Shown here piece after piece: positions 26,601 to 64,000 of a DNA stretch of 64,000 bases. The translations under genes were made by a program, and so were the position numbers. Every line of letters begins with the position of its first letter. Positions within the stretch are counted from its first letter, which is position 1. The notes beneath the pieces were generated by a model, which was not told where the DNA came from, searched no databases, and was given only the letters and a program-made list of their open reading frames with translations. Origin of the DNA: Dipylidium caninum (taxonomy: Eukaryota; Platyhelminthes; Cestoda; Cyclophyllidea; Dipylidiidae); the NCBI GenBank assembly GCA_017562135.1, contig QEYB01000143.1, forward strand, positions 43,408 through 107,407. The letters run 5' to 3'.

Positions 26601-29600
26601 TTCCAAGTCTACGGCCCATCTGTCGACTATCCCATAAATTGACCAATCGTTCTTCAACGGGCTACTTCATTTACCGTTCGACTGGAGGTATTTGCGGTAG
26701 CGGAAAATTCACCTAAACGATAGACACATGCATGCTGACTTGTACTTACACATTTGCGAATTCAGACGTGTGCACTGGGCTAGTGATCTCGTTAAGTCCT
26801 CCAATGAATCATCGGTGCTTTCTCTCAGCCAAGTTTTGTTAAAAAGCTTTATACAGCACCGATGTCTCATTGAACGTGGACTGGGAAAAGAAAACGGCAA
26901 TACTGAGGTGAATGCGATTGGAGAGGAGAGAGATCGGCAGAAATTGGGCATAGCTGCTTCCACTGTGAAGCAACACCTGTCGAGTGGCTACTTTTACCCT
27001 TTCGCCTGTCCATCTCCATGCTTTCCTGTCCGTGCTCTTACGATGGTCAAGACAAGTGACCCACTGCTAAGTGTTGATACAATTATCCCATGACGAAGAC
27101 ATTGCAACACTGCAATAGCGTACCGCTTAGGCGGCAGAACGTCTACCAGGTCTTCTTTATTTAGACCATTTTACCAAGTCCACTTCATTCCACATCGTTA
27201 AATAGAAGCACATGGGAGACGACTTGCTTCAAATACCGCCGTATAGACTGAAGTAAGTGTCACCATTCTCCACGTTCAGATGTGGTGCTGAAAAAGAAGT
27301 ATGAGTTGGACGACCTCATCTCTGAAACATTGAGGTCCTCTGCCTTTGCATTAACGCTCTGTCAATCGGAGACCGACGTTGACTCCACTTGCTAAACTTA
27401 CACTATGAATAATCATCTCCTGCACTTCAGTCAGTGGTGAAGAGGTTGATGTGCTCCGTCATTCCCTTACTCCCACCGGCACACGCTCTCTCGATGCCGT
27501 TCTTTGGCTAAGTGAAGTCCCAACCAGCACCCACCAAGGTCGACGAGTACGTCGCGGACGACGTCGACAGTCGCCCAACCTAATGCATCGTGGAATAGTT
27601 TGTTTCGATGGTTTTGGCTACAATGGTTCACCCTACATGCACGAGAAGTCCATTTGCACACGCGTGGATTGTGAAGGAGGAGGAGCAGAAGAAGAAGGGA
27701 GGAGAAGAAGAAGTCGAGCTTTCCGCGGTAAACGAGTTGATGAGATGTAAGACTGCGCAGTTACGCAGTTGTGAGTCCACGGACTGACACCGTCGGGTTC
27801 ATCTTGGTGTCTTGGTGAGGGCACCTGCGGTGGCGCCACTGTGTCCTTCAGACGACGATCGCGTGGGATGGGCAACAGAGACTGCCATTTGAGTTGGGGC
27901 GCAGCAGTGGAGGTTTGCAGTACTTGTGATGTTCAGGTTTGACGCCTCAAGTGGGTGTAAATGGGTTGCAAAGACGGCGAGGGCGAGAGAGCCAACGTGT
28001 GCTGTGATGAGTGCCGCCTCAACATCTGCCAACCCGGAGAAGTGGAGACTTTCTTCCACCGAGTCGGTGCTATTTTCATTGCCTACCCTTTGAACTCACA
28101 CCCGTATTAGTCACCACACTACAACTGCTTTCCTGTCATCACCCCACCTCCACCCTGCAATCTCCTCCCCCTTCTCCAACTAATCGCTTCTATGTGCAAG
28201 TTCCGACAAAAACGCCATTAGCATGTGGCATTGGTTGATAGTCTCAGAGGGTGAGGCCTTCGTTGTCTTCACATCCGTCACAGTCTCAAACCACTGCCAA
28301 GCAGCCCGCCGCCACAACTAACGTCTGCGTTGGCCTGCAAGAGCCATCGACGTGGCAGCGTGACTCTGCGCATCCACTCAGCGTACCTCAACGTTGGCAT
28401 GATTGACGAGTGCCGATTTCCATGTAGAGAATCCGATCACAATTTGCATTGCTGAAGGGCGCTTGGGTGGACATGTGGGTTGGATAGCGGACTGAATGCT
28501 AACTTCCCGCGTGGAGCATGGAGTACGGAAGTGAATTCGAAGGTTGCCACCTGTGTTGCTGCTATTTTATGGATTCTATGAGAGTGGGGGGTGGGGTTGG
28601 GGTTGGGGGTTGAGGGAGAGGCTAACCCAAAGTTGTCATTTGTCGTAATACTGCATTGCAACGGCCGTAAGGACGAGTCCATTCCTTCGATTGCCAAACT
28701 TCTATTGGTGTTTCTGCTTTCATCTACTTGGCCAGTTCTTTTTCTCTAGTTTACTTCCCTTTCTGTTGAGAAACATCATTTTCCAACCGTTTATCTAACA
28801 CTCCCCGTCTACCAGTACCCCTCACTTGAAAGCGGTCGAAAAGTCGTCGACTCTCACTATTTCCCCACAAGTTGATCTGACCAGGTAGTTGCTGTCCTTT
28901 TGCATCTGTCTTCTTAGCTTCAAATCGAGTCGATGGCTTCATATTTTCAGCCCCCTGTGCTGTAGCACATCATGTGAACTTGACTTTAATTGACTCATTT
29001 TTCCCCAATTTTCAGACTTATGATGCTTTAGTCCACTTTTAAATTTCCTTTCTTTATATCGTTAGGTTACTCCATTGCTGTCTTCCTCCAACTTATGTCC
29101 ACTTAAACTCTCCCCCAGGAGTTTACTGGAGGCGCGTAATTAGACCCTTTGCACATTCTTCCTGTCTCCGTTTCGACTTTCTTCTTGGAAGTCGACATTC
29201 CCTCTATCTCCTTCATCATCCACACATTGTGGGATTCAAAATCCACCAGTGCTGGCAGTTGCCTCAGATTCCACCATAGGGAAGTGAAGGTGCAACCAGG
29301 CTTACTAGCGCAATGTTTGTTTGTTGACCGGAGCCCTTTCGTGGAAGAGTATATTCGGCACATTCGCACTCTATTTTATTCTATCGGGTGGCAGTCGTGC
29401 ATTTCATGCTACAACATTTTTTCCCCGGTACTTTGGGAATTGGATGAAAAAGAGTTATGTTCCTAGTTTAGGGGTCACCGAAGTGGCAGTGAAGTTGTTG
29501 ACCGAGTAGATCCCTTGAGTGCCCCAGCCTTTGACATGTGACGTCGTATCCCATCAACAACCGCAAATGCCTCTCGAACGTTTAGGGCAGCTGCACTCAG

Positions 29601-32600
29601 TTACGTTCAGACTAGTCCCAGTCGCCATCTTTAACGTTTTTTGTTGTGACCAGGTTATTTCTCATTCACTCGGTCATGTAAGGCCAGTGAATTCGTTTAC
29701 CTCACCCTCCCATTTTGTTGTATGTATGTCTTTGCTTTATTACCCTTTGCATATATCATGAAGCCTCCTTCATCGGTTGCCTTTTCTCCGTTTTCCTCCA
29801 GTCCGAAATCGGGGTCTCTACTTGCCCGGCGCCGTGACAGCGGCCTTCTCCTGCTACCTCACCTATTCCGCTGTCCTCAGTCAACCAAAAAGTGCGTCTA
29901 TTGGAGTTATAACTGCTAAAAACCCTCACTTTGCAGTAATTAAAAAAGAAATCATTTCTCCACCGATTTATCGGATTCTCAACCAATTCAATAGTGTTCT
30001 TACACTAATGCGGATCTTAGGAAGGCTACTTAGGCTTATCTCCCTGTTCCGTCTTCACCCCTCTCTTCACTTACTGAGAAGTCACCTTGGTCTTTCTCCA
30101 TGTACCTGAGACTTGTCAATCTCGCGGTCATTCGCGCATCCATGACCGATCTGCGAATTCTTCGCTGATCTGTGCCGCAGATCTGTTCCAATGTCGTCGC
30201 CACTCACAGAGTCTGGGGGCCATGTTATTTGCTGCGAGACCACTACACTAGTCTTTTTCCTCATTTGTTGCAGCTTATAGCAGGAGGAGTAGCAGTGGAC
30301 GGATGTTCGACAGTGGCAAGTCTTTGCGTTGGTCACTTGGGAAACGTGGGTTCGAGGCGTGCAGGCGGAAGGAACAGAGGCACTAGAGGTTCAGCCAGAG
30401 AGGTGATGTGGACTTTGCATCGCCGTCTGTTCACGAGGGGAAATGCTCGCTCGTTGCAGGTGGTCGTCCTTCCCACTGCTCGTCGTTGGGGACTGTTGTT
30501 GATCTTCGTGTTCGTGTGGCCTCATTCTAACCGGAATGGAGTGTCTGTGTCTCGGGTTGTGTGTGTGTGTGTGTGTGTGTGTGTGGATTTGAATTTGCTC
30601 GTCGACCTGGTCTGAGCAGTCTGCTGGTGAGTGGCCCGGATGAAGACGATTGACTTGGATGGAGGTGACGTAGTGAGGTAGCAATGGGGAAGACGTGGAT
30701 TGTAACCCTCAAATTGGTGATCACTCTTTTCGTGAGATCGGAAGAAGGAGACTAAATGGAGAAAGAGTGCGGTGTGTGTGTGTGTGTATGTGTGTGAGGG
30801 TGCGGGATGTATGGGGATGAGGCGTTGAGTTGTGCACGACTGGGATTAAGCCGGTTGAGTTGAGACAGAACGAGGGCGATATCTAACACGAATGATGTTA
30901 AAATAACCTTTGGCTTGGTCTAATGACACTGGCTCACGCTCACTTTCACGCACTCTTCTTTCTTGGTGTGTTCTCACTCTTCCACGACGACGCGATGCCG
31001 TGTTGAGACTACCGATGACTAGAGTGTGGGGTTGCCTGTTGGGGTGGTGAGGATTCTGATTGTATTTTGGCAATATCGAGCATCCTGGTGTGCACACTTC
31101 ACTTTTACCAACGAAATAACGCGCCTTTTTTCACGCTTGTGTTCTTTTTCGTCATCAACATTTTGATCCAACCAAGTTAACGCATTCATGCATTTCTCCC
31201 TTTCGAGGCCTAAAATCTTATCAATCAAAGCTTCGACTTTCTTCAACCTCGTACGGCTGCGCTCGCGCTTTTATTCACCAAATTCATCCAACTTATATTT
31301 TTCAGGCGTCAATTCGAGGCTTGCCAATTGAAATTCCAAGCTGTCCAATCTTCAAATCTCCGCCACCTTAACAACCGCAGCGAATCACATCTGTTGGCCG
31401 ACAACAATCGTTACACCGCTCTCGATTATATCACCAATACTTGCCTTTCCCGTCTTCGTCCAACAGCCCTCGGCCGCTGGACCACATCTCCGATTTATTC
31501 GCCATATTTGGCATCATCTTCGTGGTCGGTTTCATCCATTGTCTCCAGGTAGTCCTCTCCGCTTCGCAAAAAAGTTGACGGTTCGTTTTCGGAGGGAAGG
31601 TGGGGAACTTTCAGGTAATTTATGCGGCGCTCTGTCGAGTTGCGGACCGCTCTAGCTTAGATAAACGGCTGGAACGTAAATTATGTTTCTCAGAAAGGGA
31701 AGAAACTGGCAAAAGGCCAAATCAAACAGAAAGCACCAATAAGAAGTGTGGCAATTCCAGAGGAATGAATTCGTCCTTACGGCTAATTGCAATGCAGTAT
31801 CATTGACAAATGACAACTTTGGGTTTAGCCTTCCCCCACCCCTAACCCCACCCACGCCACTTGATAAGAATCCATGATGCTGCAATAAGCAGCACACAAG
31901 TTGTGGCAACCTTCGATTACACACCGTACTCCGCCTCGGGAGTTTGCAATCAGTCCGACATGTTTCCACCACGCGTGTTTGAGGTCGGACTGTTCTTAGG
32001 CATTCCAGTCGTCGTCTGCCGCTATATCCAACCCACATGTCCACCCAAGCGCCCTTCAGCAATTGCAAATTGTGATCGGCCAGGCTCTCTACACGCAGAT
32101 AGGCAGTCGTCAATCATGCCAACGTTGAGGTACGCTGAGTGGATGCGCAGAGTCACGCTGCCACGCTCGGTGGCTCTTGCAGGCCAACGCAGACGTTAGT
32201 TGTGGCGGCGGGCTGCTTGGGCAGTGGTTTGAGACTGTGACGGCTGATGTGAAGAACAACGAAGGCCTCAGACCTCTGAGACTATCAACCAATTTCCAAC
32301 ATGCTAATGGCGTTTTTTGTCGGAACTTGCACATAGGAAGCGATTAGTTGGAGAAGGGGGAGGAAGATTGCAGGGTGGAGGTGGGGTGGGGTGGGAGGTG
32401 GACAGGAAAGAAGTTGTAGTGTGGTGACTAATACGATGTGAGTTCAAAGGGTAGGCAATGAAAATAGCACCGACTCGGTGGAAGAAAGGTCTCCACTTCT
32501 CCGGGTTGGAGATGTTGAGGCGGCAACATCACATCACACGTTGGCTCTCTCGCCCTCGGCCGTCTTTGCACCCTTTACACCGACTTGAGGCGTCAAACGA

Positions 32601-35600
32601 CTGAAAACATCACAAGTACTGCAAACCTCCACACCTGCTGGCTTTCCCCAATTTCCACACTGTGGCTCTGTTGCCATTCGCCAGACGCGATCGTCGTCGA
32701 AGGACACGTAGGGCCACGCAGGTGCCTCACCAAGACACCAAGATGAAACCCCGAAGGTGTCAGTCCGTGGACTCACAACTGCGTAACTGCGCAGTCTTAC
32801 ATTCTCATCAAGACTCGTTTACCGCAACCTCTTCTTCTTCTCGACTTCTTCTTCGCTTCTGCTCTCTCCTCTCCTTCCTCCACAATCCACGCGTGTGCAG
32901 ATGGACTTCTCGTGCATGTAGGGTGGTTGGACCACTTTGTAGCCAAGCCATCGAAAACAACTATTCCACGATGCATCATTAGGTTGGGCGACTGTCGACA
33001 GTCGTCCGCGACGTACTGCGTCGACCTCCGGTGGGTGCTTGCGTTGGGACTTCACGTTCTCGCGTTAGCCAAAGAACGGCATCAGAAGAGAGGTGTGCGC
33101 CGGTGGGAGTTAAGGGAATGACGCGAGCACATCAGTCTCGCCCAATTACAATTTTCTTACTTTTTATTTTGGCAGGCTTCTGAAAGTTGGCGACACACCT
33201 CTTTACCCAGTCCTAAGCACTAATACCCAGTCGATTCGTTTTCGCAAGTATACTGAAGTTTTTAAAATTTATCGGTTCTCTTCTCGTGGTCCATGTTTTG
33301 TTCATAAGGGGCCCATCTCGTCCCTTAACGTCCCCAGACAGACTTAAATCTGTGTTGGTCTCTCTTTACCTATAACTTATCTCGCTCTAGGCTGGAGAGT
33401 TTGCGTCTGCGCGTCTCGGAAGCGAAGAAAAGTTTTATAGGGACGGTATTCTCCGCGTTTCAATTCTGTTTCTGCTGCGTGTTCTCAGTTGCCTTATTAT
33501 CTTTACTTTCGTCATGATGCCCCCGCCTTTTCATATCTCTCTCCTACACGCCCATTTTCTTCTCCCTTCTCTAATCGCTTTCTTTTTTACCGAACCAGGT
33601 GCCTATGCTATACCTTCTCTATTATTTTTTAGTTTTTGCGCCGGGCACCTCCCCAAAGCTTAAACGTTTGGGCATTCAAACTCGTCGACAGAAAAATGGT
33701 AATCTTTCATCTTTGCCCCTTTGGATTTTCCACTACTACTTTCTCCCATTGATTCCCCCCTTGTTTACTCCTCTTCTTCCTCCCTGCCTCCTCCCTTCTC
33801 TCCCATTCCGTCCGTATCTTTTTAATCACTTCCGGATTAACATGCGAGCTGGTTGAGGTGAGTATACCGCGACTGATAGTAGTATAGACTCTCGGGGGAG
33901 GGTCGCCATGGCCCAGGACATTCTGAGTGCCATGGTGAATGTTTGGCTTTATTCTGAAGTTTAAAGCCGAATTAGCTCCTGTAATTGTGCCCTTGAGTCG
34001 TTGCGAGGTGTGGAAAAGACAATAATTAATCCCAAGGCTATCGTAGCTGAATGCCAGTTTGTTGCTTTTCCCCTTTTTTTCTTCTTTTCCTTTATCTCTC
34101 AGTTCAGAGTAGTCAGGAGGCAGATGACTCATTCCTGCGGTGTTGGGCAATGGTGGACATTGTTTATTAAATTTCCAACGAAAGGAGGTTATTCTTAATG
34201 TAATAAGGACACTTACCATCTTGAGCGGATAACGGTTTTACTTGGGCAATTTTAGTGGGTTCCTTATGATAAAAGCTCTTATTTCTTTACAATGCTTGTT
34301 GATAAACAAAGTATACATATTATGGCAGTTGACTTCATACTTCTCTTTTCAGAAAAGCCATTGTTCAAAAGTTGCTGGTAGAATTGAAGGAAGGAACAGG
34401 AAGATGCGATAAGAATGGAAAGGGAGAGGGAGCATCCAATAAATCTCACCTCATGGGCTCTCCTCGGCCCTTACTGCATCCTCCGCAAACATACGTTTGT
34501 TTCAGCACGAAAGACGCGCCAAGCGACGCAGAATGGGTATGTTGTGAGGGAAACAAGTTATTCGGCCTTTTTAAACGCCACACCCAATGTAGAGGTGGTT
34601 GAATCCGCGAATCCTTTTCTCTAAATCACCTGAAGGAGAGCCTAGTTAATGAACTCTCACGCTAAAATGGAACAGTTTCGGAAGTCTGGTGGGACAACAA
34701 GTGAAATACTTTTTTAGCTAACTATTTTTACCACCACAACTTGGTGCCTGTCTGGCTTGAAATGATATAGAAATTCCCCTTTTTATTTGAATGGGTCTGC
34801 AATGATTTGACATCAAACTCCTTTCCTAATAGCGCTTGAAATGCTCAAGGAGGTTGCTGATGCAACGAATGCTTCGGAACCCGAGTCTTTTTGTTCTGAA
34901 ACTGATCCTTCATTGACCAAAACCATGGAAGAATCTCTGCGGCGAAAGCCGTTCAAGGAAGAAAATTGCTCGGACCTCACCCGCGCGACTCAAAAACTCT
35001 CTCCAGCCCTCAACGAGTAGTTGAAATCGTAGCAATGGTAAAAAATTAATTATCTTCCGTCTCAACACTCCCCTCTATTTACTCTCAATCGCCGAGTCAT
35101 AACTTCTGTGGGTGGGAAAAGGACGACCATTGTCCGTTTTACGAGGTTCCCCTTCTTCTCCGCCTTATGACCTCACAAGACTATCTTTTCAATGGACGAT
35201 GTGGAGGCTTGCAAAAAAGGCCAGACACGTCACCAATATCTTGCTGGTGACGGAGGTTGCATTTACTACACGAGAACATGAAAAATGGTCTGATTCATAT
35301 GGTAGGCTTTTATGACTAAATCACTGTCATCTTAACTGGCAGTTACTATGGCCACTTTTCTTTGCAGTTCCTTTACCGATGTGCTCCTCCAAAACTATCA
35401 CCACGCGATTTTTATACGGTCTACAACGAGGCCATTTTAACAATCTACTCATTACGCCTGGTTCCAACTTTGATCTTCTGCCTAGCTAGGCCTCTATATG
35501 GCATGGCTCAGCTAACTAATTGGTACAAGTGGTAAAACTTCAAGTCAATTTTACGTCGCTTAATTGCCATGGCACCACTCGTGGGAATAAGTTTTGTACC

Positions 35601-36139
35601 TGTTGACTTGACACGAGCATTGCAAGTGGGGATTGAAGAAAACCCGGCTAGTTTCCAAGCCGTGCATTGCGCGAACCTTGAAAAAGGATGTTTTGAATGC
35701 AAAGCGTTGTGGTTTAGACGAATTTCTATTTTGGCAACAATGACTGTGATGAACGGCTAGAGTAACGTCTCAGTGTTACCTTTGAGTTTAAAGAGAAACA
35801 GGGCAACTTTTTTCTATGTCAAAACCATCTCACACTTAGTCGCAAATTCTTATTTCGTTAATCCTTTTCGATGCCTAAGTCCTGGAAACTTGTCCAGCCT
35901 CAGCGTAAGCTGGATTGATGAATCTTTGCAAACATGTGGATGAAATTGTTCTCGCACGTGGTAGCGCTCTCCTACTCTATCTTCTATTTACCCTCTGTTT
36001 CGCGCCGTTGTACTTCAATCGACGTTTTATCCAAACACCTGCAATCGCCTACATGTTTGATGACAAAAGACCAGAAGATAGTCAAAGTGATCACAAACAA
36101 GAATCCAAGAAAATCTTGCCCACCAGGTGTGAATCTTGA
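23420..36139 (+). CDS. SERINC: Serine incorporator (SERINC/TMS1 family), multi-exon gene
   Basis: SERINC proteins are multi-pass membrane proteins linked to serine incorporation into phosphatidylserine and sphingolipids, and described as lipid scramblases. Landmarks in order: a Cys-rich N-terminus then STSTR and helix 1; EQCV..VGYLAVYRFC; KIHNGLWFWK; a helix ending in FLIDGAYELNERW (family: LIDFAHSWN.RW); NQCALNKMIIYVG (family: C.ENKFFIS.N); RNRGLYLPGAVTAAFSCYLTYS (family: RSGLLQ...TLY.MYLTWS); a Tyr-Ser-bearing helix; a polar loop; YSYAWFHFIFCLA..LTNWY in consensus; and a C-terminal WMK...ALLLYLLF..FAPL. Exons 1-7 join in phase. Exons from about 33.6 kb on carry 1-2 base frameshifts. A complete family member is about 450 residues; about 280 are in intact exons here. 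Intron 6 (4 kb) contains the outer edge of the large inverted repeat. No promoter was identified. An upstream first exon is possible because TTTTAG precedes the ATG. Confidence 0.85.
23647..23828 (+). CDS. SERINC: SERINC exon 2 (GYLAVYRFC helix)
   Basis: It starts after TTTATTTTCAG (intron of 41 bp, 23,606-23,646). It encodes EQCVRFVGYLAVYRFCIP, a membrane helix, and the KIHNG motif, which align with the family's VGYKAVYR.CFA and HNGFW. It ends within the Gly codon (GG|GTACTACT). Confidence 0.85.
23865..23947 (+). CDS. SERINC: SERINC exon 3
   Basis: The 36-bp intron (23,829-23,864) is a multiple of three with no stop, so the frame also stays open if it is not spliced. Removing it gives NGLWFWKCAFIISLW, which aligns without a gap to the family's NGFWFFK and next helix, so the splice is favoured. 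The donor is ACCG|GTATGTATAAG. Confidence 0.85.
23986..24083 (+). CDS. SERINC: SERINC exon 4 (LIDGAYELNERW)
   Basis: It follows a 38-bp intron (23,948-23,985, ending CCCTAG). It encodes VWMSMAVLGGIVFILLQNVF then LIDGAYELNERWF, matching the IWF...FILIQLVLLIDFAHSWN.RW block that is diagnostic of SERINC. I place the donor at GTGTAATC (24,084); GTAATC two bases later is the alternative, but it breaks the phase with exon 5. Confidence 0.9.
24145..24181 (+). CDS. SERINC: SERINC exon 5, 37-bp micro-exon
   Basis: It is bounded by ATTCTTCTCAG and GTGAGTTTT. It encodes VQESQEETLRRI plus one base, which completes a Leu codon with exon 6. This fills exactly the short acidic loop expected between N.RW and the next helix. 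It is too short to find by frame length and is supported by phase on both sides. Confidence 0.75.
25619..25786 (+). CDS. SERINC: SERINC exon 6 (CALNK motif helices)
   Basis: It starts after CCCCTTTCAG and ends CTCTAA|GTGAGT. It encodes two helices around NQCALNKMIIYVG, then ALHPL, matching the family's GC.ENKFFIS.N....SI.P. Intron 5 (24,182-25,618) is 1.4 kb, and intron 6 runs for 4.0 kb across the edge of the inverted repeat. Confidence 0.9.
27448..28798 (+). repeat. Dispersed repeat family E, copy 1 (left arm)
   Basis: It starts GATGTGCTCCGTCATTCCC and ends near the TTATCTA that follows CATCATTTTCCAACCG. It is repeated in reverse at 31,657-33,133, forward at 57,397-59,069 and reverse at 62,100-63,604. 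The copies share a purine-rich tract, a TTACGCAGTT segment and a G-rich end. No transposase or reverse transcriptase frame was seen, and the ends have no clear target-site duplication. It is possibly a non-autonomous element. Confidence 0.75.
28586..28616 (+). repeat. G-run tract (G-quadruplex-like) in repeat E copy 1
   Basis: At least four runs of 3-5 G separated by one to three bases. It is conserved in copy 4 as C-runs at 62,282-62,313, weaker in copy 2 (31,833-31,853), and broken in copy 3. Confidence 0.7.
29802..29891 (+). CDS. SERINC: SERINC exon 7 (left arm, intact)
   Basis: The phase joins exon 6 exactly: A from exon 6 plus TC gives Ile. It encodes RNRGLYLPGAVTAAFSCYLT then YSAVLSQPK, matching the family's RSGLLQ..LITLYTMYLTWSA.S..P. 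The donor is AAAA|GTGCGTC. The next intron (29,892-29,936) is 45 bp, and a likely exon 8 starts at 29,937 (IIKKEIISPP) but soon runs into repeat F, so its end cannot be set. Confidence 0.85.
29975..30949 (-). repeat. Dispersed repeat family F, copy 2 (left arm)
   Basis: Reverse-complement copy of 17,054-18,010. It begins within or just after the probable SERINC exon 8 and lies in the following intron. Its second CA tract is here a pure (GT)n on the + strand. Confidence 0.75.
30558..30585 (+). repeat. (GT)n microsatellite in family F copy 2
   Basis: A pure TG/GT run of about 14 units. The equivalent tract in the right arm (about 60,277-60,296) is shorter and interrupted. Confidence 0.9.
31019..31351 (-). 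pseudogene. BAG-domain-like frame with one in-frame stop
   Basis: BAG domains bind the Hsp70 ATPase domain. On the - strand a frame reads RLDSLEFQLASLELTPEKYK, then LDEFGE, a TAA (31,271-31,273), then KRERSRTRLKKVEALIDKIL and a charged tail. The order LDS(I/L)E, a basic R.R stretch, then LKKVEALIDKI resembles helices 2-3 of the BAG fold. It lies antisense within the SERINC locus and next to repeat F. The right-arm partner (about 59.4-59.7 kb) does not keep the frame. It may be part of a longer repeat rather than a gene. Confidence 0.25.
31657..33133 (-). repeat. Dispersed repeat family E, copy 2 (left arm, inverted)
   Basis: Reverse-complement copy of 27,448-28,798. With copy 1 it forms an inverted pair around SERINC exon 7 and repeat F. 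It is clearly diverged from copy 1, including a longer G-poor version of the C/G-rich tract at 31,833-31,853. Confidence 0.75.
33599..33698 (+). pseudogene. SERINC: SERINC exon for the YSS.R helix (left copy, frameshifted)
   Basis: It lies between TTTACCGAACCAG and AATG|GTAATC. The left reading gives YLLYYFLVFAPGT..K and GIQTRRQK. The right-arm copy reads RYYFIVCAPTLQAKTL and AIQTRRQK. Taken together they suggest a Tyr-Ser-Leu-Arg-Ala-Pro-Thr segment like the family's LLYSSIRTSTN. Neither copy reads through cleanly, so the exon is damaged or miscalled at base level. Confidence 0.5.
34353..34537 (+). CDS. SERINC: Probable SERINC loop exon
   Basis: A hydrophilic open stretch between TCTCTTTTCAG and GAATGG|GTATGTTGTG. 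It encodes KAIVQKLLVELKEGTGRCDK and a Pro-rich tail. Its position, between the YSS.R helix exon and the last helices, fits the variable cytoplasmic loop of SERINC. The right-arm copy (56,030-56,190, - strand) is shifted in frame. Assignment to SERINC rests on order and splice signals, not on sequence conservation. Confidence 0.4.
34833..35016 (+). CDS. SERINC: Probable SERINC acidic loop exon
   Basis: It follows CTTTCCTAATAG and ends at GA|GTAGTTG (in frame, the next codon would be TAG). It encodes LKEVADATNASEPESFCSET and a charged remainder. The mirrored frame on the - strand of the right arm (55,393-55,587) starts with the same MLKEVADATNAS but shifts frame later. No domain is recognised; the place in the gene suggests the acidic cytoplasmic loop. 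Confidence 0.4.
35368..35528 (+). pseudogene. SERINC: SERINC penultimate exon (YSYAWFHF...LTNWY), frameshifted
   Basis: It lies between CTTTGCAG and ACAA|GTGG. The segments EAILTIYS, then IFCLA, then YM, then LTNWYK are all present but in different frames because of extra bases (CATTACG, CCAACTTT, TTTGATC, and an extra GC after TATATG). Allowing for these, the order matches the family's YSYS.FH.M.CLASLY.MMTLTNWY signature. The right copy (54,846-55,014) has its own, different indels and keeps the better donor (GTGAGTAA). Confidence 0.65.
35905..36139 (+). pseudogene. SERINC: SERINC last exon (C-terminal helix), frameshifted
   Basis: One frame reads TMWMKLFSHVVAL-like sequence and continues two bases off as ALLLYLLFTLCFAPLYFNRR. 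Together they match the family C-terminus WVK..SSWVCLLLYVWTL.APL..TSRDF. The break is at AGCGCTCTCC, where the right arm reads AGCTCTCC. After NRRF the left frame runs a further 36 or so residues to TGA at 36,137, whereas the right copy stops soon after RRFI. The exon start is not certain. Confidence 0.65.
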
Positions 36140-53400: not shown

Positions 53401-54302
53401 TAATACTAAAAGGGGTTTATGAACCCTTCGGACAGTAGTGCGTTGTAAAAGAAACAACGTCTAAAGTCACAAGTTTACTTTCCACGTTTGAAACCGACAC
53501 CCATCTACTCCTGTACGTAAATCCTGTCACTACCAACAAAGGTGAAGTTGTGGACAAAAATGTCCTTATGAAGACGCTTCACGTTACATTTGTCCCTAAA
53601 GACAATTTCTTTTTGGACAGAAGTAGCCTGGAGTCAATAACTTTACTTTGATGCAAATACTGATGCGCTACTTTCTATGGAAGAGGGGGGAGACTCGCTG
53701 CGAAATGGGAAATCCGTGCATCATTATGTCCCCACATTTAGCGTTTACAATTTTAATACTGATGGTATGATATCGAAAGGATGAGATTCTTCAATTGCTG
53801 AGCTTTAGTACGGCAAATGAATGGGACGCCGCGAATCATCTTCTAGTTGGCGAATAGGATAAGAACGATTAATTTAAAACTGTCAGCAAAGATAGTCTAC
53901 TGCTAGAATTTCTTGGACCTTGCCTCCAAACGGAACTCGTACACATGAAATTGCCTGATTTTATGCAATCGGCTGACGCCTTTTTACTCCATTTTACAGA
54001 ACCTCGTCCCAAACAAAGCACAAGCAACGGGTCTAGCGGACCACACATAAATTCGGGTGCGCCTCATTTACGCGAGTGACTAATTCCAGCATGCACCAAC
54101 AATTCGAACATATGATAATACTAGAAGTATTAGATTGTCAGTCATAAATGAAATCCTCTACATAATGGTTAGAATCATGTCAATGATTCTCACCCTGTCG
54201 TGGGCAATAGATTTCTTGGACTTATGTTTGTGATCACTTTGACTATCTTCTGGTCTAGTGATCAATCAAAACATGTAGGCGTAAGGCGGAATTGGCAGGT
54301 GT
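47430..54302. other. Right arm between EGF region and SERINC copy
   Basis: Mirror of 36.2-43.0 kb. It carries the reverse copies of the unknown frames listed for the left arm (at about 48.1-48.6, 49.1-49.4 and 51.2-51.7 kb). No independent gene was seen. Confidence 0.4.
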
Positions 54303-54445
54303 TTAGATAAAACGTCGCATTGAAGCTACAAACGGCGCGCAGGGGAACAGGAGGTTTAGAAGATAGAGTAGGAGAGCTACCAGTGCCCGAAATATCAATT
54401 TCATCACATGTGTTGCCAAGATTCCATCACAGTCTGGTGAGGCCT
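54303..54445 (-). pseudogene. SERINC: SERINC last exon, right arm copy
   Basis: Mirror of the C-terminal exon. It reads VMKLIFRALVALLLYLLNLL then FPCAPFVASMRRFI and TAA, in one frame from the WMK-like segment through the last helix. This is the better copy for the helix and the more family-like stop position. Confidence 0.55.
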
Positions 54446-54845
54446 GCAGTTCTGGGATCCTACAGCGTCGAAGGATTAACTCGAAATGATGTGTAGAATT
54501 TGCGACTAAGTCGTGCAATGGTCTGTGACAGAAAAAAGTTGCCCTCTCTTTAAACTAAAGGTAACACTGAAGACGACTCTTCAAATCTTCAGCCGTTCAT
54601 CACAGTCATTGTTGCCAAAATGATTCCGATATGCGTTCTAAAACCAACGCTTTGCATTCAAAACATCCTTCTTCAACGTTCGCAAGCAATGCACGGCTCG
54701 GAAACCTAGCTAGGGTGGAGGCCTTCAATCCCCACAACTTGCAGAGTGCTCTGTCACGCAGTCAACAGGTACAAAACTACTATTCCAGAGTGGTGGCCAT
54801 GCATTAAAGCGACGTTATAATTGACTAAAAGTAAGCTTTACTCAC

Positions 54846-55014
54846 TTGTACCCCAATTGAGTTAGCTGAGCATCATTATAGAGCTAGCTAGGCCAGAAGA
54901 TAAAGTGGAACCAGGGCGTTGATGTAGATTGTTAAAATGGCCTCGTTTGTAGACCGGTATACTTAAAATCGCGTGGTATAGTTTTCTGGTAGGAGCACTA
55001 TCGGAAAATGGAGA
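54846..55014 (-). pseudogene. SERINC: SERINC penultimate exon, right arm copy
   Basis: Mirror of 35,368-35,528. It has a correct TTCCACTTTATCTTCTG (FHFIF) where the left copy has two extra bases, but is damaged elsewhere (ACATCAACGCCC, and a missing base in CTATAATGATG). The donor is a good GTGAGTAA. Confidence 0.6.
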
Positions 55015-55392
55015 CTGCAAAGAAAAGTGGCCTATATATCTTGCCAGTTCAAGATGACAGCTGATTTAGTCATTAAAATAAGCCTACCTAGTCCCCGAGA
55101 TCAAGGATTTCAGCTTCATTTTTCATGTTTTCGTGTAGTAAATGCAAGAGTCCGTCGTCACCAGCAAGATATTGGTGTGACGTGTCTGGCCTTTTGCAAC
55201 CTCAATATCGTCCATTGAAAGATAGTCTTTTGAGGTCATAAGGCGGAGAAGAAGGGGGAACCTCGCAAAAGGACAATGGTCGTCCTTTCCCCACCACAGA
55301 AGTTGGTATGACTCGGCGATTGAGAGTAAATTAGAGGGAGTGGTTGAGACGGGAAGAGGCGTTAATTTTATTACCCATTGCTACGATTTCAA

Positions 55393-55610
55393 CTATTGCA
55401 TTGAGGGGCTGGAGAGATTTTGGAGTCGCGAGCAGGGGTGATGGGTCGAATCGAGCAATTTCTTCTTCCTTGACGGCTTTCGGCCGCAGATTGCTTCCTG
55501 GTTTTGCGTCAATGAAGGATCAGTTTCAAGACAAAAAGACTTCGGTGTTCCCGAAGCATTCGTTGCATCAGCAACCTCCTTGAGCATTTTTTCAAGCCAT
55601 AGCGAGCTAT
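55393..55610 (-). pseudogene. SERINC: SERINC acidic loop exon, right arm copy
   Basis: Mirror of 34,833-35,016. It starts MLKEVADATNAS as on the left, keeps ETDPSLT, and then departs from the left frame at an indel in the CATGGAAGA/CAGGAAGCA region. Confidence 0.45.
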
Positions 55611-56029
55611 TAGGAATCGTGGAGTTTGATGCTTATGCTCTTTAAGATGTCTCAAGATCGCCATTCGAAGTAATTACGAAAAGGGGAATTTCTATATCAT
55701 TTCCACAAGCCAGACAGCCACCAAGTTGTTGGTGGTCTAATAGCCTAAAAAAGTCTATTTTCTACTTGTGTGTACGCCACCAGATTCCGAAAAACATGTT
55801 TCTATTCTTGATTTTAGCGTGAGAGTTCACTTAACTTAGGCCTCGTCCACTCAGGTGGATCCTTTAGAGTGACAAGACAGAATTCGCGGAATTTCAACCA
55901 ACCTCTACATTTGGGTTGTGCGTTTAAAAGGTCCCGATACTAACTCTGTTTCCCCTCACAACATTACCCATTCCTGCGTCGCTTGGCGCGTTCTTTGTGT
56001 CTTACCGGTGCTGAAACAACAACGTATGT

Positions 56030-56190
56030 TATCAGAGGATGTAGAGGGCCGAGGAGACCATGGTGTGAGTGTTCACGTTTGGAGTCTCCTCTCGCCGTTT
56101 CCATTCTTCGCCATCTCCTGTTTCCTCCTTCATTCTGCCAGCAACTTTTTGAAATACAATGGCTTCTCTGAAAGAGAGTCGGAAAGTCCA
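56030..56190 (-). pseudogene. SERINC: SERINC first loop exon, right arm copy
   Basis: Mirror of 34,353-34,537. It opens FREAIVFQKVAGRMKEE and shifts relative to the left copy through several 1-base differences; the acceptor CTCTCTTTCAG is kept. Confidence 0.4.
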
Positions 56191-56868
56191 CTGCCAATTA
56201 CTTTGTTGTGTATACAGCATTTAAGAAAAGACGGGTTTGTTATAAAGACCACTAAATGCCCTCTAAGTTTAAAAATACCCGTTTCGCTCTAAAGATGTGA
56301 GTGTCCTATTACCAGTTAAGGAGTAACACCGTCTCTTCGGTGAAATTATATTAATATCAATTGTCAATGCTCCTTGCCCCAACACCGTTTAGGATGAGTC
56401 ATCTGCCTCCTGACTTTACTCTGAACTGAGAGGCTGATAGGATAAAAAGAAGAAATAGGAAAAGCCGGAGAAAGCACTCACAACTGGCATTCAGCTTATT
56501 TGATAGCCTTGGGTTATTATTTCTGTCTTCCACACTTGGCGCCAAACGATCAGGAGCTCATTACAGGAGCTAACGTTCGGCTTTAACTTCAGAAAAGCCA
56601 AAACATGCCTTTCACCATTTGATTCGTCAGAATGTCCTGGCCATGGCGGACTCCCCTCGAGAGTCTATAACTCTTCATCGTGCGCTATTCCTCACCTCAA
56701 CCCCGCTTTCGCATGTAATTCTCGGAAGTGAGTATTAAAATACGGACGTGATGGGAGCGGAGGGAGGAGGGCAGGGAGGGAGAGAAAGGAGTAACACAAA
56801 GGGGAAATAATGAGGGAAGAGCAGTATGTGGATAATCAAGGGTCTGGCAATAATGCCATGAAGATTAC

Positions 56869-56965
56869 CATTTTCTGTCGACGAGTTTGAATTGCCCATA
56901 ACGTCTTAGCTTGGAGGGTAGGCGCGCAAACTATAAAATAATAGCGAGAAGGTATAGGTATGCAC
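56869..56965 (-). pseudogene. SERINC: SERINC YSS.R-helix exon, right arm copy
   Basis: Mirror of 33,599-33,698 with the same splice sites. It reads APTLQAKTL correctly where the left copy is scrambled, but is out of frame just before, at TATAGTTTG. Confidence 0.5.
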
Positions 56966-57396
56966 CTGGTTTCCCATCGGTTAAAAAAAAAAGGATTAGA
57001 GAGCGGAGTAAACGATGGCGGCTCATAGTGGAACGGAGAGATGAAAGGGGCGATCATGACGAAAGTAAAGATGATAAGGCAACTGAGAACACGCAGCAGA
57101 AACAATGAACGCGAGAATACCGTCCCTATAAAACTTTTCTTCGTTCGAGACGCGCAGACGCAACTTCCAGCCTAGACAGATAAGTTATTAGGTAAAGAAA
57201 ACAGATTTGGGACGTTAAGGGGACGAATGGGCCCCCTTATGAAACTGGACCACGAGAAGAGAACCGATAATTTAAAAACTTCAGTATATCTTGCAAACGA
57301 ATCGCACTGTATTAGTGCTTAGGACGTGGGTAAAGAGTTGGTGGTCGCCAACTTCAAAGCCTCAAAATAAAAGTAAAATTGTAATTGGGCGAGACT

Positions 57397-59069
57397 GATG
57401 TGCTCCGTCATTCCCTTACTCCCACCGGCACACACTCTCTCGATGCCGTTCTTTGGCTAAGTGAAGTCCCAACCAGCCACCACAACTCGAACGAGTACGT
57501 CGCGGACGAGCTCGACAGTTGCGCGCGCGAATTAATGCATCGAGTGGATATAGTTGTTTCGATGGTTTGGCACTAAGACGGTCGTCAACCAATCATGCCG
57601 AGAAGTCCATCGCAAACTCACGCGTGGATTGTGAAGGAGGAGGAGGAGGGGAGGAGGGAGGAGGGAGTGTGGAGGGAGGGTAGGAGCTACGGGAGGGAAG
57701 GATAAGAAGAAGTAGACGAGGTCGAACTCCGCGGTAGAACGACTGTGATGAGATGTAAGACTGCGCAGTTACGCACGTTGCCGAGTCTCACGAGTACTGA
57801 CACCGTCGGTGTCATCTTGTGTCTTGGTGACGGGCACCTGCGGGTGGCGCCACTCTGTCCTTGCAGTACGAGCTGAATCGCGAGCGACAGTGGGCTCCAC
57901 AACCAAAGCGATACATGGCAGACTGCCATTTGAGTTGCGGGCGCAGCAGTGAGTGTGAGGTTTGCAGTATACTTGTCATGTTCAGGTTGACGCCTCAAGT
58001 GGGTGTATAACATGGGTTGCAAGAGACGACGAGGGCGAGAGAGCCAACGTGTGCTGTGATGAGTGCCCGTCGCGCCGTGCCTCTCAGTATTACTATCTGC
58101 GCCCAACGCGGATACGACAGCGTCGTGGAACGACTTTCTTCCACTCCGTGAGTCGGGGTCTATTTTCATGTCTTACCTCTTTGATACTCACCAGCGCGTA
58201 TTAGTCACCACACTACAACTGCTTTCCTCGTCTCACCCCACCCCACCCCATCCCAGCCCACCCCCCACCCTGCAATTCTCCTCCCCCTTGCTCCAACTAA
58301 TCGCTTCTATGCTGCAAGTCCGACAAAACCCCGGCGCGTTAGCATGTGCGGCATTGGTGTTTGGATAGTCTCAGAGGGTGGAGGCCTTCGGATTCGTTCC
58401 GTTCACATCGCGTTCATGCTCAGTTCTCAAACCAACTGTGGCCAGAGCAGTCCCTGCCGCCACAACTAACTCTGCGTTGGCGCTGCAAGAGCCATCGACG
58501 TGCAGCGACTGACTCTGCGCACTCCACTCAGTGCGTTACCTCACCGGTTGCCAGATTCTGACCGAGTATGCCACGATTCCTATTGTAGAGACTCAGTCCT
58601 GATTCACTATTTTGCTATACTTGCCTGAATGGCGCGCTTTTGATGACATGTGGTGCTTGGATAGGTAGCTTTAGACGACGACCTGCTGAATGCTAAGAAC
58701 AGTCAGACCTTCCACGCGTGGTGAAGCATGTCGGCACATGATCGCCTAACCCCGATGCGGAGTACTGTGAATTCGAGCGGTCCACCTGTTGTTGCTGCTG
58801 CTATTTTATTGGATTTCTATGAGAGTGGGCGTCTGCGCGTTTGGGGTTGGCGGCGCTTATGGGATTGAGGCTACTACCCAACAGTTTTCATTTGTTCGTA
58901 ATTACTGCATTTTGCATACGCGCCTGTTATATCGAATCGAGTCCATCCTTCGATTCGCCAACTTCTATTGGGTTTCTGCTTTTCATCTACTTGGGCCAGT
59001 ATCTTTTTCTCTAGTTTACTTCTACCTGTTCTGTTGAGAAACATCATTTGTTCCAGCCGTTTTCATCTA
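57397..59069 (+). repeat. Dispersed repeat family E, copy 3 (right arm)
   Basis: Mirror image of copy 2. It is about 200 bp longer than copy 2, mainly through many single-base insertions, which is unusual for natural decay and more like uncorrected sequence. It contains an expanded GGAGG-rich tract at about 57,638-57,690. Confidence 0.7.
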
Positions 59070-59893
59070 GCGTTTAAAGCGGTCAAACTCGACAAACTCC
59101 ATCCATTTGTGCGTCGATAGTTGCGCTTCAACAACGAGCTCGCAGTCTCCGCAAAATTATCTGAAGTTGCCCACTCCTTCCCTCCGATCAAACTCGTCAA
59201 CATTTTGCGAAGCGATCTACGGTACTATCCCTTGGAGACAATGCGATTGACAATATCCCGGACCGACTGAAGATTGATGCCAGAATATTGGCGAATAAAT
59301 ATCGAGAGTGGTCCAGCGCCGTAGGTGTTGGATACAAGGCCGGTACGGATAGGCAAGTGTATTTGGTGATTAACTCTCTTGACGCCGCTTGACGATTTGT
59401 CGCAATACAGATGTGATTGTCGCGCGGTTGTTAACCGGGATCTGGAGATTTGAGAATTTGACAGTCTTTGAATTCTCAATCAATCCTGAGCAAGCCCTCG
59501 TAATGACGCTGACATCTATCTTATGTAGTGACAATGCGTGATCAACGCGGCGAGGCAGTCCTACGAGGGCTGACTCAGCAATAAGTCGCATAAGTTTGTA
59601 TTTATCCGTATAACGATTTTAGGCTCTCTCGAAAGGAGAAATGCATGAATGCGTTAGACTTCGGTTTGGCATCAAAAACTGTGATGACGATAAAAGACAC
59701 AGTTCGTTGAAAAAAGGCGCGTTATTTCTTGGTAAAAGTGAAGTGTGACACACCAGATGCTCGATTAATTGCCAAAATACAATCAGAATTCCTCACCACA
59801 CCCAACAGAGGCAACCACACTCTAGTCATCGGTAGTCTCAACACGGCATGCGCTCGTCGTGGAAGATTGAGAACACACCAAGAAAGAAGATGC

Positions 59894-60897
59894 GTTGAAA
59901 TGAGCGATGAGCCAGTTGTCATTAGACAGCAAAGGTTATATTTAACAGTCATTCGTGTTTAGATATTCGCCCTCGTTCTGTCTCAATCTCAACCGCTTGA
60001 ATCCCAGTTTAAGGGCCACAACTCAACGCCTCATCCCCTACATTCCCGCCCCTCACACACATACACACACACAACACCGCACTCTTTCTCCATTTAGTCT
60101 TCCTTCTCCGATCTCACGAAAAAGAGTGATCACAATTTTGGGGTTACAATTCCACGTCTTCCCCATTGCTCCTCAACTACGTACCTCCAATCCAAGTCAA
60201 TCGTCTTCATCCGGCCACTTCACCGCAGACTGCTCAGACCAGGTCGACGAGCAAATTGCGAAATCCCACACACAACAGCACACACACACACACAACCCGG
60301 AACAGACACTCCATTCCGGTTAGAATAGGCCACACGAACACGAAGATCAACAACAGTCCCCAGAACGACAGCAGTGGGGAGGATCGACACCTGCAACACG
60401 ACGAGCATTTCCCCTTCTGAACAGACGGCGATGCAAAGTCCACATTCACCTCTCCTGCTGAACCTTCTAGTGCCTCCTGTTCCTTCCGCCTTGCACGCCT
60501 CTCGAACCCACGATTTACCCAAGTTGACCAACGCAAAGACTTGCCACTCTCGAACATCGTTCCACTGCTACTCCTCCTGCTATAACTGCAACAAATGAGG
60601 AAAAAGACGTAAGTGTAGTGGTCTCCGCAGCAATAACATGGCCCCAGACTCTTTGAGTGGCGACGACATGGATACAGATCTGCGGCACAGCATCAGCGAG
60701 TATTCGCAGATCGTCATGGGATGCGCGCAGTGACGTCTGAGATTACAAGTCTCAGTTAATGAGAAAAGACCAAGCGTGACTTTCTCAGTAAGTGAATGAG
60801 AGTGGTGAGACGGAACAGTGGAGATAGCCTAAGTAGCTCCTTCCTAGAGATCCGCATTTATGGTGTAAGGAACACTATTGAATGGTTGAGAATCCGA
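59894..60897 (+). repeat. Dispersed repeat family F, copy 3 (right arm)
   Basis: Mirror image of copy 2, with the same landmarks and many small indels. Confidence 0.75.
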
Positions 60898-60977
60898 TAA
60901 ATCGGTGGAGAAATTGATTTCTTTTTTAATTATCTGCAAATGAAGGGTTTTTAGCAGTATAACTCCAATAGACGCAC

Positions 60978-61061
60978 TTTTGTGGTTGACTGATGACAGG
61001 GAAGTGAGGTAGCAGGAGAAGGGCCGCCGTCACGGCGGGGCAGTAGAGACCCGATTTCGGA
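60978..61061 (-). pseudogene. SERINC: SERINC exon 7, right arm copy, broken
   Basis: Mirror of 29,802-29,891, six bases shorter. Acceptor (CCTCCAG) and donor (GTGCGTC) are kept. Lost bases in the GGGG and TTGCCCGGCG stretches shift the frame to an early TGA, and a second gap follows near TACCTCAC. Confidence 0.7.
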
Positions 61062-62099
61062 CTGGAGGAAACGGAGAAAAGGCAGACCGATGAAGAGGGC
61101 TTCATGATATTATGCAAAGGCGTTAATAAGCAAAGACATACATACAAAAGAATGGAGGTGAGGTAAACGAATCACTGGCCTTACATGACCTGAGTGAATA
61201 GAAATAACCTGTCACAACAAAAAAACGTTAAAAGATGGCGACGCGCTAGTCTGAACGTAACTGAGTGCAGCTGCCCTAAACGTTCGAGAGGCATTTGCGA
61301 GTTGTTGTGGTTACGACTCACATGTCAAGGGTTGGGCACTCAAGGGATCTACTCGGTCAACAACTTCACTGCACTTCGGTGCCCCTAAACTAGGAATCAT
61401 AACTCTTTTCACTTCCATGACTTCCGTCAAAAGTAACCGGTGGAAAAAATGTTGTAGCACTGATAAGTGCACCGACTTGGCCACCGATAGAATAAAATAG
61501 AGTTGCGAATGTGCTCCGAATATACGCTCTGACGACAGGGCTCGGTCAACAAACAATCACCATTGCGCTAGTAAGCCGTGGTTGCACCTTCATTCCCTAT
61601 GGCTGGAATTCTGAGGAACTGCCGCCACTGTGGATTGTTGAATCCCACAATGTGTGAGATGTGAAGGAGATAGAGGGTAATGTCGCTTCCAAGAAGAAAG
61701 TCGAAGACGAGACAGGGAAGAATGTGCAAAGAGTCTAATTACGTGCGCCTCAGTTAAAAACTCTCTAGGGGATGTTTAAGTGGACATAAGTGGAAGACAG
61801 CAATGGAGTAACTAACGATATAAGAAAGGAAATTAAAAGTGGCTAAAGCATCATAAGTCTGGAAAATGGGAAAGAAATGAGTCAATTAAAGTCAGTTCAC
61901 ATTGATGTGGCTACAGCACAGGGGCTGAAAATTGAAGCCATCGACTCTATTTGAAGCTTAAGGAAGACGCAATTGCTTCTGCAACGCAGCCAACAAAGGA
62001 CACAACTACCTGGTCAGAATCAACTGGTGGGGGAAATAGATGAAGAGTCGACGACTTTTCGACCGCTTTCAAGTGAGGGGTACTGGTAGACGCGTAGTG

Positions 62100-63604
62100 T
62101 TAGATAAACGGCTGGAAAATGATGTTTCTCAACAGAAAGGGAAGTAAACTAGAGAAAAAGAACTGGCCAAGTAGATGAAAGCAGAAACACCAATAGAAGT
62201 TTGGCAATCGAAGGAATTGACTCGTCCTTACGGCCGTTGCAATGCAGTATTACGACAAATGACAACTTTGGGTTTAGCCTCTCCCTCAACCCCCAACCCC
62301 AACCCCACCCCCCACTCTCATAGAATCCATAAAATAGCAGCAACACAGGTGGCAACCTCCGAATTCACGTACTCCGCCTCGGGAGTTGCATCAGTCCGAC
62401 ATGCTTCCACCACGCGTGGGAAGGTCGGACTGTTCTTAGCATTCCAGTCGTCGTCTACCTCTATCCAACCCACATGTCCACCCAAGCGCCCTTCAGCAAT
62501 GCAAATTGTGATCGGATTCTCTACATGGAAATCGGCACTCGTCAATCATGCCAACGTTGAGGTACGCTGAGTGGATGCGCAGAGTCACGCTGCCACGTCG
62601 ATGGCTCTTGCAGGCCAACGCAGACGTTAGTTGTGCGGCGGGCTGCTTTCGCAGTGTTTGTAGATCTGTGACGATGTGAAGCAACGTAAGGCCTCCACCC
62701 TCTGAGACGTATTCAACCAATGCCACATTGCTATATGGGTCTTTGTCGCGAACTTGCACATTAGAAGCGTAATTTTTAGTTGGAGAAGTCTGAATAGGAA
62801 CATTGCAAGTAGCGTGCGCCCGAGCGGCTGCGATGGTGTACATGTAGCGTCTCTCAGCAGACTATTACTATGATCGGTGGGGTGGCGGTTGATGAAGGAA
62901 AGCAGTTTAGTGTTGACTAATACGGGTGTGCAGTTCAAAGGTAGCAATTGAAAATTGCACCGACTCCGGTGGAAGAAGTCTCCACTTCTCGGTTGTCAGA
63001 TGTGAGGCGGCACTCATCACAGACACGTTGGCTCTCTCGCCCTCGCCAGTCTTGCAACCCATTTTACACCCACTTGAGGCCGTAAACCTGAACATCACAA
63101 GTACTGCAAACCTCCACTGCTAGCCCCCACTCAAATGGCATCTCTATTGTTGCCCATCCCACCGCATCGTCCGTGAGGGACACAGTGGCGTCCACCGCAG
63201 GTGCCCTCACCAGACACAAGATGAACCCGACGGTGTCATCCCGTGGACTTCACAATGCTAAACTGCGCAGGCTTACATCTCCATCAACTCGTGTACCGCG
63301 GAGTCGACCTCGTCTACTCTTCGTTCTTCCCTCCCTCCCTCCCTCCCTTCCCTCCCTCCCCTCCTCCTCCTCCTTCCTCCTCCTCCTTCAACAATCCACG
63401 CGTGTGCAAATGACTTCTCGCTGCATGTTGGACCATTGTAGCCAACCATCGAAACAACTATTCCACGAATGCATTAGTGGGCGACTGTCGACTCGTCCCG
63501 CACCGTACTCGTCGACCTTGCTGGGGTCGGTGGACTTCACTTACCAAAGAACGGCATCGAGAGAGCTGCCTGCCGGGCGAGTAAGGGAATGACGCGAGCA
63601 CATC
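62100..63604 (-). repeat. Dispersed repeat family E, copy 4 (right arm)
   Basis: Mirror image of copy 1. Parts are identical to it (for example about 75 bp around the C-rich tract at 62,282-62,313), while others carry indels. It includes a TCCC/CTCC tract at about 63,328-63,390 that is longer than its partner in copy 1. Confidence 0.75.
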
Positions 63605-64000
63605 AACCTCTCTCACCACGACTGAGTCAGGAGATGATTACTTTCATAGTGTAAGTTAGCAAGTGGGATGTCAACGTCGGTTCGAATTGACAGAGCGTTA
63701 ATGCAAAGGCAGAGGACCTACGAAGTTTCAGAGATGAGTCGTCCAACTTCTACTTATTATTCAGCACCACATCACCTGAACGTGGAGATAGGGTGACACT
63801 CTATCTATGCTTCAGTTCTATACCCGGTATTTGAACAAGTCGTCTCCCATGCTTGTTCATATTTAACGATGTGGAATTGAACTGGACTTGGTAAATTGCT
63901 AAAAAAGAAGACCTGTAGACGTGTCTGCCGCCTAGCGGTACGCTATTGCAGTTGTTGCAATGTTTCGATCATGGGATAATTGTATCCATCTTCCTCTTTT

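Follow-up and report, generated by a model that had tools for sequence, protein, structure and literature searches.

Among known palindromes, P1-P8 of the human Y chromosome undergo gene conversion and have two unique flanks. Human Y palindromes are described as showing doubled depth (PMC6218980). Inverted duplications of a different kind arise when DNA is amplified before sequencing. Of 475 chimeras reported from multiple displacement amplification (MDA), 406 were inverted, and 337 of those 406 joined segments less than 10 kb apart; the main type is an inverted chimera with an intervening deletion and 2-21 nt of complementarity at the join, and the average MDA strand is cited there as 12 kb (Lasken and Stockwell, 2007; PMC1855051). 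A large human MDA data set gave a preferred distance of 80-280 nt from one joined segment to the other, with more than 95% of overlaps falling at 3-13 nt (PMC5372508). In PacBio data, reads with palindromes reached 43.6 and 47.8% in two amplified Arabidopsis samples versus 0.5% in an unamplified control (PMC6218980). Inverted-repeat chimeras have also been reported without amplification, in 0.18-7.33% of reads from nanopore ligation libraries (PMC13141652).

In this work, a long inverted repeat in a contig of the tapeworm Dipylidium caninum was compared with these systems. The window (the whole 64,000-nt stretch analysed) corresponds to positions 43,408-107,407 of contig C450, and its last base is the last base of that 107,407-bp contig. 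It is very likely that the repeat is an artefact, a chimeric folded-back long read built into the contig end, and that the animal itself probably does not carry it.

Structure of the inverted repeat

Self-BLASTN of the window gave a main minus-orientation match of 28,171-43,520 to 62,788-46,822 (16,426 columns, 86.4% identity, 697 mismatches versus 810 gap openings) and an outer match of 27,076-28,154 to 63,986-62,876 (84.1%, 56 mismatches, 72 gap openings). These matches bear out the 37-kb inverted repeat of the preliminary description, including its coordinates, its 16-17 kb arms and its spacer of about 3.3 kb. The left arm (27,076-43,520, plus strand) measures 16.4 kb and the right arm 17.2 kb, the second running in the opposite orientation; chance can be dismissed as an origin. 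Nested inside the arms is a smaller inverted pair, 27,447-28,798 and 31,657-33,134. The right arm forms the terminal stretch of C450, stopping 14 bp short of the physical contig end, and the final 14 bases (63,987-64,000, plus strand) have no mirror in the left arm.

The unduplicated spacer, or loop (43,521-46,821, plus strand), was delimited by self-BLASTN and by searching the assembly (106 Mb, 920 contigs) with two of its parts. Neither 43,521-44,500 nor 45,000-46,500 found a second copy, the latter giving short diverged matches only. At the junction tract (46,822-46,842, plus strand), 17 of 21 bases, counted by eye, are the same as in the mirror image of 43,500-43,520. Past this tract the arms continue nearly identical, and there is no long exact overlap at the join. 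The tract is taken as imperfect homology at a template switch, with the joined points less than 10 kb apart and the 3.3 kb unduplicated stretch between them.

With tools for bacterial ORFs, tRNAs and Rfam families, the window does not look prokaryotic: it has nine ORFs of at least 150 aa, no tRNA and no Rfam match at the gathering score, and a search of phage DNA with 16,800-18,800 gave no match. Pfam scans covered these nine ORFs and 10 out of 30 stop-to-stop ORFs at least 95 aa long that overlap 27,076-46,822, three loci being common to both sets with small differences in length. The one family found among the ORFs scanned was Serinc, located in the left flank. They included no transposase, in agreement with the preliminary description, and a giant terminal-inverted-repeat transposon is accordingly without support from the 10 of 30 ORFs scanned in 27,076-46,822.

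Differences between the arms

The differences between the arms are rich in indels and resemble read errors more than ordinary substitutions: gap openings exceed mismatches, and the outer right arm is rich in insertions. Across left-arm positions 28.2-37.2 kb, each 1-kb block shows 28-160 mismatches and 46-103 gap openings against the right arm, while at positions 40.2-43.2 kb the counts per kb drop to 0-1 for mismatches and 10-16 for gap openings. Rare short indels make up most of the differences over 40-43.5 kb, and the innermost 3.3 kb or so holds 6 mismatches, 4 of which lie within the final 351 columns, next to the junction. The inner part as a whole has 41 mismatches in 7,087 columns, with indels that are mostly single-base. 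The inner right arm (46,822-53,700, minus strand) is nearly identical to the left arm and differs mainly by short indels; the outer right arm (53,700-63,986, minus strand) is laden with insertions, like a raw read, up to the contig end. Over left-arm positions 28.2-36.5 kb, the outer part, extra bases number 1,010 in the right arm versus 334 in the left. A model of error climbing gradually away from the spacer was rejected, as the right arm shows a sudden change at 36.6 kb of the left arm (about 53.7 kb in the window). The platform was probably PacBio CLR, whose errors are insertion-rich.

A related contig, C131, begins opposite window position 40,788 and does not extend to the spacer, and thus no unfolded allele is seen across the junction. 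Set against C131, the right arm has frequent private insertions in its outer 10 kb or so and is clean in its inner 7 kb or so. A three-way alignment over 27,076-31,575 has the right arm standing alone in 314 substitution columns (101 + 72 + 141) and the left arm in 28 (14 + 6 + 8), with 426 versus 31 private inserted columns. Insertions found only in the right arm number 55 per 500 bp before dropping to 0 at position 36,576 of the left arm. Wherever C131 and the left arm disagree at a clean site, the right arm mostly matches the left, by 120:14 in 27-31.5 kb and by 218:15 in 37.5-40.7 kb.

The left arm agrees with C131 and has few private errors at 27.1-31 kb, carries insertion-type noise of its own from about 31.5 to 39 kb, and comes close to the right arm in its inner part. 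From 36,076 inward, the left arm stands alone in 77 substitution columns of the three-way alignment versus 30 for the right arm. Given this noisy stretch and the inner-part counts, the picture is not simply one of a good left arm and a bad right arm. Several observations speak against an artefact: over 31.5-37.5 kb, clean sites match the right arm to C131 a little more often than to the left arm (117:108), the inner part has 125 extra bases in the left arm versus 66 in the right, and the cleanness of the inner right arm is what a real second copy would also produce.

Contig ends elsewhere in the assembly

Whole-assembly searches with 26,000-27,500 and 27,447-28,500 found, among the matches listed, no contig that joins the outer end of the arm to another flank. 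Two distinct unique outer flanks were not seen, the right arm ending where the contig ends.

Inverted joins resembling those of MDA recur at the left end of C450 and the right end of contig C743. The left end of C450 is a patchwork of indel-rich inverted and direct copies (C450 coordinates): 14,621-21,993 matches 45,810-38,609, 16,593-21,704 matches 27,141-22,138, and 22,138-27,153 matches 38,921-43,942 (8 mismatches, 72 gap openings). The spacer of the inverted pair here is 0.4 kb. C450:19-14,623 was rejected as a plain duplicate of 28,226-37,571 in the window on account of 5.1 kb of extra sequence at 36,909/36,910, which suggests that this end may mix two alleles. At C743, the last 470 bp mirror a site 5.9 kb upstream, with 64 extra bases in the terminal copy versus 4 in the other. 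This was the one fold-back among eight unselected contig ends (none of five starts, one of three ends), in stretches of 4.9-10 kb that longer arms would escape. No fold-back occurs in the whole of C131 or the first 30 kb of contig C49, and together with the count of one in eight this indicates that such joins are not ubiquitous.

An artefact is also favoured by contig C716: its last 2.5 kb or so at this locus is the odd copy where C450 and C131 agree, and its substitutions and insertions far outnumber its deletions (225, 160 and 3, respectively, in one 600-bp step). The end of C49 differs from C450 and C131 by mixed substitutions, insertions and deletions, which could be ordinary allelic divergence.

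Origin of the repeat

The repeat folds back at a short tract of imperfect homology, stops at a contig end, is noisy in its outer right arm, and has similar structures at the other end of C450 and at the end of C743. A chimeric long read would have copied the locus through the spacer, jumped 3.3 kb back onto the complementary strand by way of the short imperfect homology, and then copied the arm in reverse. The assembler would have accepted this read and ended C450 with it. The inner 7 kb or so would also have attracted reads from the true locus and been cleaned by them, leaving the outer 10 kb or so at raw-read quality. On the sequence alone, either junction, 43,520 or 46,822, may be the genomic one. 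We infer that a single read was responsible, that the inner part was cleaned by this route, and that the switch took place during phi29-type whole-genome amplification.

Of the two readings offered by the preliminary description, a fold-back in the assembly is favoured by the contig end and the noise pattern, which count against a palindrome maintained through gene conversion. A real palindrome, very recent or gene-converted, whose outer right arm was poorly assembled because the reads of both arms were collapsed onto the left, would account for clean inner arms with so few mismatches near the junction, and could also have stalled the assembler at the outer end of an arm. However, a second outer flank is on no contig among the matches listed, the contig simply ends at the right arm, and the same signature appears again at the other end of C450 and at the end of C743. 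This explanation is therefore considered very improbable. We give equally little credence to a tapeworm palindrome with 16-kb arms, one captured well and the other through a thin, unpolished chain of reads.

A missed SMRTbell adapter, in which the two strands of one insert stay joined in a single PacBio read left unsplit at the hairpin, would give terminal inverted copies of raw quality. The last 13 bases of the contig lie within two edits of the start of the PacBio SMRTbell adapter, a match equalled by 2 of 20,000 random contig 14-mers. This adapter-like end is suggestive only, and by it the right arm may end at the end of an insert. Yet a missed adapter predicts no spacer, whereas the spacers seen are 3.3 kb here, 5.9 kb at C743 and 0.4 kb in the left pair of C450. 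The full adapter was not found in the assembly (at up to 3 substitutions, without indels), the junction is not among the sites of the six best local adapter matches on each strand of C450, and the direct-orientation copies at the left end of C450 are left unexplained. A missed adapter is thus hardly to be expected as the source of the repeat.

The spacer had earlier been read as evidence against the simplest artefact. That argument holds for a missed adapter but fails for MDA chimeras, in which an intervening stretch is typical (PMC1855051). With inverted MDA chimeras that include such a stretch, the arm length and the missing transposase are no longer puzzling. Most likely, the inverted repeat has no biological importance. 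As a caution, a fold-back artefact can have a spacer between its arms, and what gives it away is an outer arm rich in insertions that ends where the contig ends. In this assembly, any other long inverted duplication close to the end of a contig should be distrusted pending read checks.

Comparison with known systems

The locus resembles human Y palindromes P1-P8 in its large inverted arms, small spacer and near-identical inner arms, and differs in that one "flank" is a contig end and the outer arm carries read-type errors. With the artificial palindromes treated by Pacasus, it shares noisy long reads whose inverted repeats become inverted duplications in assemblies; these palindromes are split at the centre of the self-alignment, in an account of the splitting that mentions no spacer, while a 3.3 kb loop is present here (PMC6218980). 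Measured against the human MDA chimeras as reported, 3.3 kb and an imperfect 21-bp tract are not typical (PMC5372508). Compared with the inverted MDA chimeras of PMC1855051, the 16 kb arms are long for a 12 kb average strand and the homology is imperfect (17/21). Nevertheless, the locus is like those chimeras in its inverted orientation, in the distance of less than 10 kb between the joined points, in the presence of several events in C450, some of them direct joins, and possibly in the short homology at the join.

The inverted repeat and its setting

Comparison of the window with itself recovered two colinear reverse complements, 27,076-43,520 and 46,822-63,986, on either side of a spacer of about 3.3 kb. 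The preliminary description of an inverted repeat from 27,076 to 63,986 with colinear arms was thus correct, and the length and collinearity of the arms exclude chance. The contig that carries it (C450; 107,407 bases in an assembly of 920 contigs and 106,277,105 bases) shares its last base with the window, which spans C450:43,408-107,407. The right arm is therefore the terminal 17 kb of the contig, and it halts 14 bases short of the contig's end.

The left flank contains an ORF with a Serinc (serine-incorporator) domain at 23,440-23,985 (E 1.3e-11). It has four matches in 5.8 billion proteins, and all three with a named source are from tapeworms, at 59-61% identity: a TsM_ gene, the prefix presumably denoting Taenia solium, and proteins of Rodentolepis nana and Hymenolepis microstoma. 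A tapeworm is therefore the most likely source of the DNA. Versions of parts of the locus 10,955-40,788 occur in three other contigs of the assembly (C131, C49 and C716; 68-98% identity by piece), which means that alleles or close paralogues have been left uncollapsed.

Two smaller repeats touch the left arm. An inverted pair at 27,447-28,798 and 31,657-33,134 (arms of 1.0-1.5 kb, 5.5-5.7 kb overall) looks real because it is also present in C131, with substitution-type differences (7,880-8,935 and 12,383-13,423; 95%, 36 mismatches, 11 gap openings). Two ORFs within it had no match in Pfam, and inspection by eye showed no target-site duplication. A dispersed inverted repeat, 17,053-17,928 in the left flank and 30,096-30,949 in the left arm, differs by ordinary substitutions (89%, 67 mismatches, 13 gap openings) and is found in C131 and C716 as well.

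Differences between the arms

The main alignment of the arms contains fewer mismatches (697) than gap openings (810). Per 1 kb block, left-arm positions 28.2-37.2 kb show 46-103 gap openings and 28-160 mismatches, and positions 40.2-43.2 kb show 10-16 and 0-1. The final 351 alignment columns hold four mismatches, the same number as the disagreements in the junction tract, where 17 of the last 21 mirrored positions (43,500-43,520 and 46,822-46,842) agree when counted by eye (AGTGCGCGAAATAATACATTC versus AGTGAGTGAAATGATGCATTC). Over 28.2-36.5 kb, extra bases number 1,010 in the right copy and 334 in the left; in the inner part the balance is reversed, at 66 and 125. In PacBio continuous long reads, errors are mostly insertions.

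C131 was taken whole (19.8 kb) as the outgroup; its pieces match window positions 20,976-40,788 in a single copy, at identities of 81-91%. In the three-way comparison over 27,076-31,575, 314 substitution columns single out the right arm and 28 the left, and the two arms have 426 and 31 private insertions, respectively. The imbalance turns round inward of 36,076, where 77 substitution columns single out the left arm and 30 the right. Per 500-base step, the right arm has 19-147 private inserted bases (8 in one step) as far as left-arm position 36.5 kb, but 0-6 further in. This abrupt drop divides the right arm into a clean part of about 7 kb and a raw-like part of about 10 kb on the side of the contig end. 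The left arm has insertion-type noise of its own at 31,500-39,000, a low-quality stretch internal to the contig.

Clean sites that distinguish the left arm from C131 place the right arm with the left arm at 120 and with C131 at 14 over 27-31.5 kb, and at 218 and 15 over 37.5-40.7 kb; over 31.5-37.5 kb, within the noisy part of the left arm, the counts are 108 and 117. Taken together, the indel, outgroup and clean-site comparisons make the right arm look like a copy of the same haplotype rather than a second copy of long standing; the left arm, too, contains a thinly supported stretch.

Similar signatures at other contig ends

The last ~2.5 kb of C716, at the same locus, is also an odd copy, with insertions and substitutions far exceeding deletions and with C450 and C131 concordant. 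The first ~5 kb of C49 departs as well, but the changes there are of mixed kinds and could be due to allelic divergence. Eight contig ends were picked by number beforehand: the 10 kb starts of C7, C191, C375, C559 and C743, and the ends of C191 and C743 (about 10 kb) and C559 (4.9 kb). One of the eight has a terminal fold-back, the end of C743, whose final 470 bases are an inverted copy of a site 5.9 kb upstream (within C743:96,300-106,270), the terminal copy having 64 extra bases versus 4, and 37 mismatches, over a 410-bp stretch. An inverted pair at the start of C743 has mismatch-dominated differences (141 mismatches, 14 gap openings) and is an ordinary diverged repeat. At the thresholds applied, no inverted pair was found in window positions 1-27,000, the first 30 kb of C49 or 10 kb of the interior of C549.

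The other end of C450 (1-45,810, mostly outside the window) is a patchwork of indel-rich direct and inverted copies. The inverted copies pair 14,621-21,993 with 45,810-38,609, and 16,593-21,704 with 27,141-22,138 across a 0.4 kb spacer; the direct copies pair 22,138-27,153 with 38,921-43,942 (72 gap openings, 8 mismatches) and 19-8,871 with 28,226-36,909 (412 and 193). The copy at 19-14,623 has an additional 5.1 kb at 36,909/36,910, which may be an insertion that is polymorphic between alleles.

Origin of the fold-back

The preliminary description had left two alternatives, a palindrome kept by gene conversion or an assembly fold-back. The raw-like terminal arm and the same signature at other contig ends favour the latter. 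A chimeric long read was most likely accepted by the assembly as the terminal stretch of C450, and the inverted repeat most likely does not represent new biology. If a genuine genomic palindrome were present, some contig should run from the far end of the right arm into unique sequence belonging to that arm. Among the best-scoring candidates listed when 26,000-27,500 and 27,447-28,500 were searched against the whole assembly, none of the four contigs compared at the flank has a second one: C450, C131, C49 and C716 all have the common left flank. The one further match, at 62%, lies in C523. This absence is strong but not complete evidence, and a genuine palindrome is very improbable.

A plain missed SMRTbell adapter, the PacBio hairpin, would also fold a read back on itself. 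Two edits at most separate the final 13 bases of C450 from the beginning of the adapter, a match equalled by 2 of 20,000 random contig 14-mers; this is only suggestive and post hoc. Against this explanation, the assembly has no full-length adapter when up to three substitutions are allowed, and the best six adapter matches per strand in C450 all lie away from the fold point. The spacer also argues against it, as the preliminary description held, but it counters nothing beyond the plain missed adapter, since template-switch chimeras can have spacers too.

Whole-genome amplification would be the best-fitting route to a chimeric read. Among chimeras of multiple displacement amplification (MDA) described by Lasken and Stockwell, which arise at about one junction per 22 kb, 406 of 475 were inverted, 337 of these joined segments less than 10 kb apart, and complementarity of 2 to 21 bases was present in 76.8% of all chimeras (PMC1855051). 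Palindromes were reported in 43.6 and 47.8% of amplified Arabidopsis PacBio reads and 0.5% of the unamplified control, and an assembly of the gorilla Y built from amplified reads without correction contained many inverted duplications (PMC6218980). In a 2026 publication on amplified tardigrades sequenced by Nanopore, about one third of mitochondrial reads were palindromic, many with multiple inversions (PMC13265396). Nanopore library ligation is described as a further source of inverted-repeat reads (PMC13141652). Because published inverted chimeras have intervening distances, the spacer found here can be reconciled with a template-switch chimera. For human MDA, a large data set had most joined segments within 5 knt of each other, with a preferred distance of 80-280 nt, so that a spacer of 3.3 kb is permitted, though not typical (PMC5372508).
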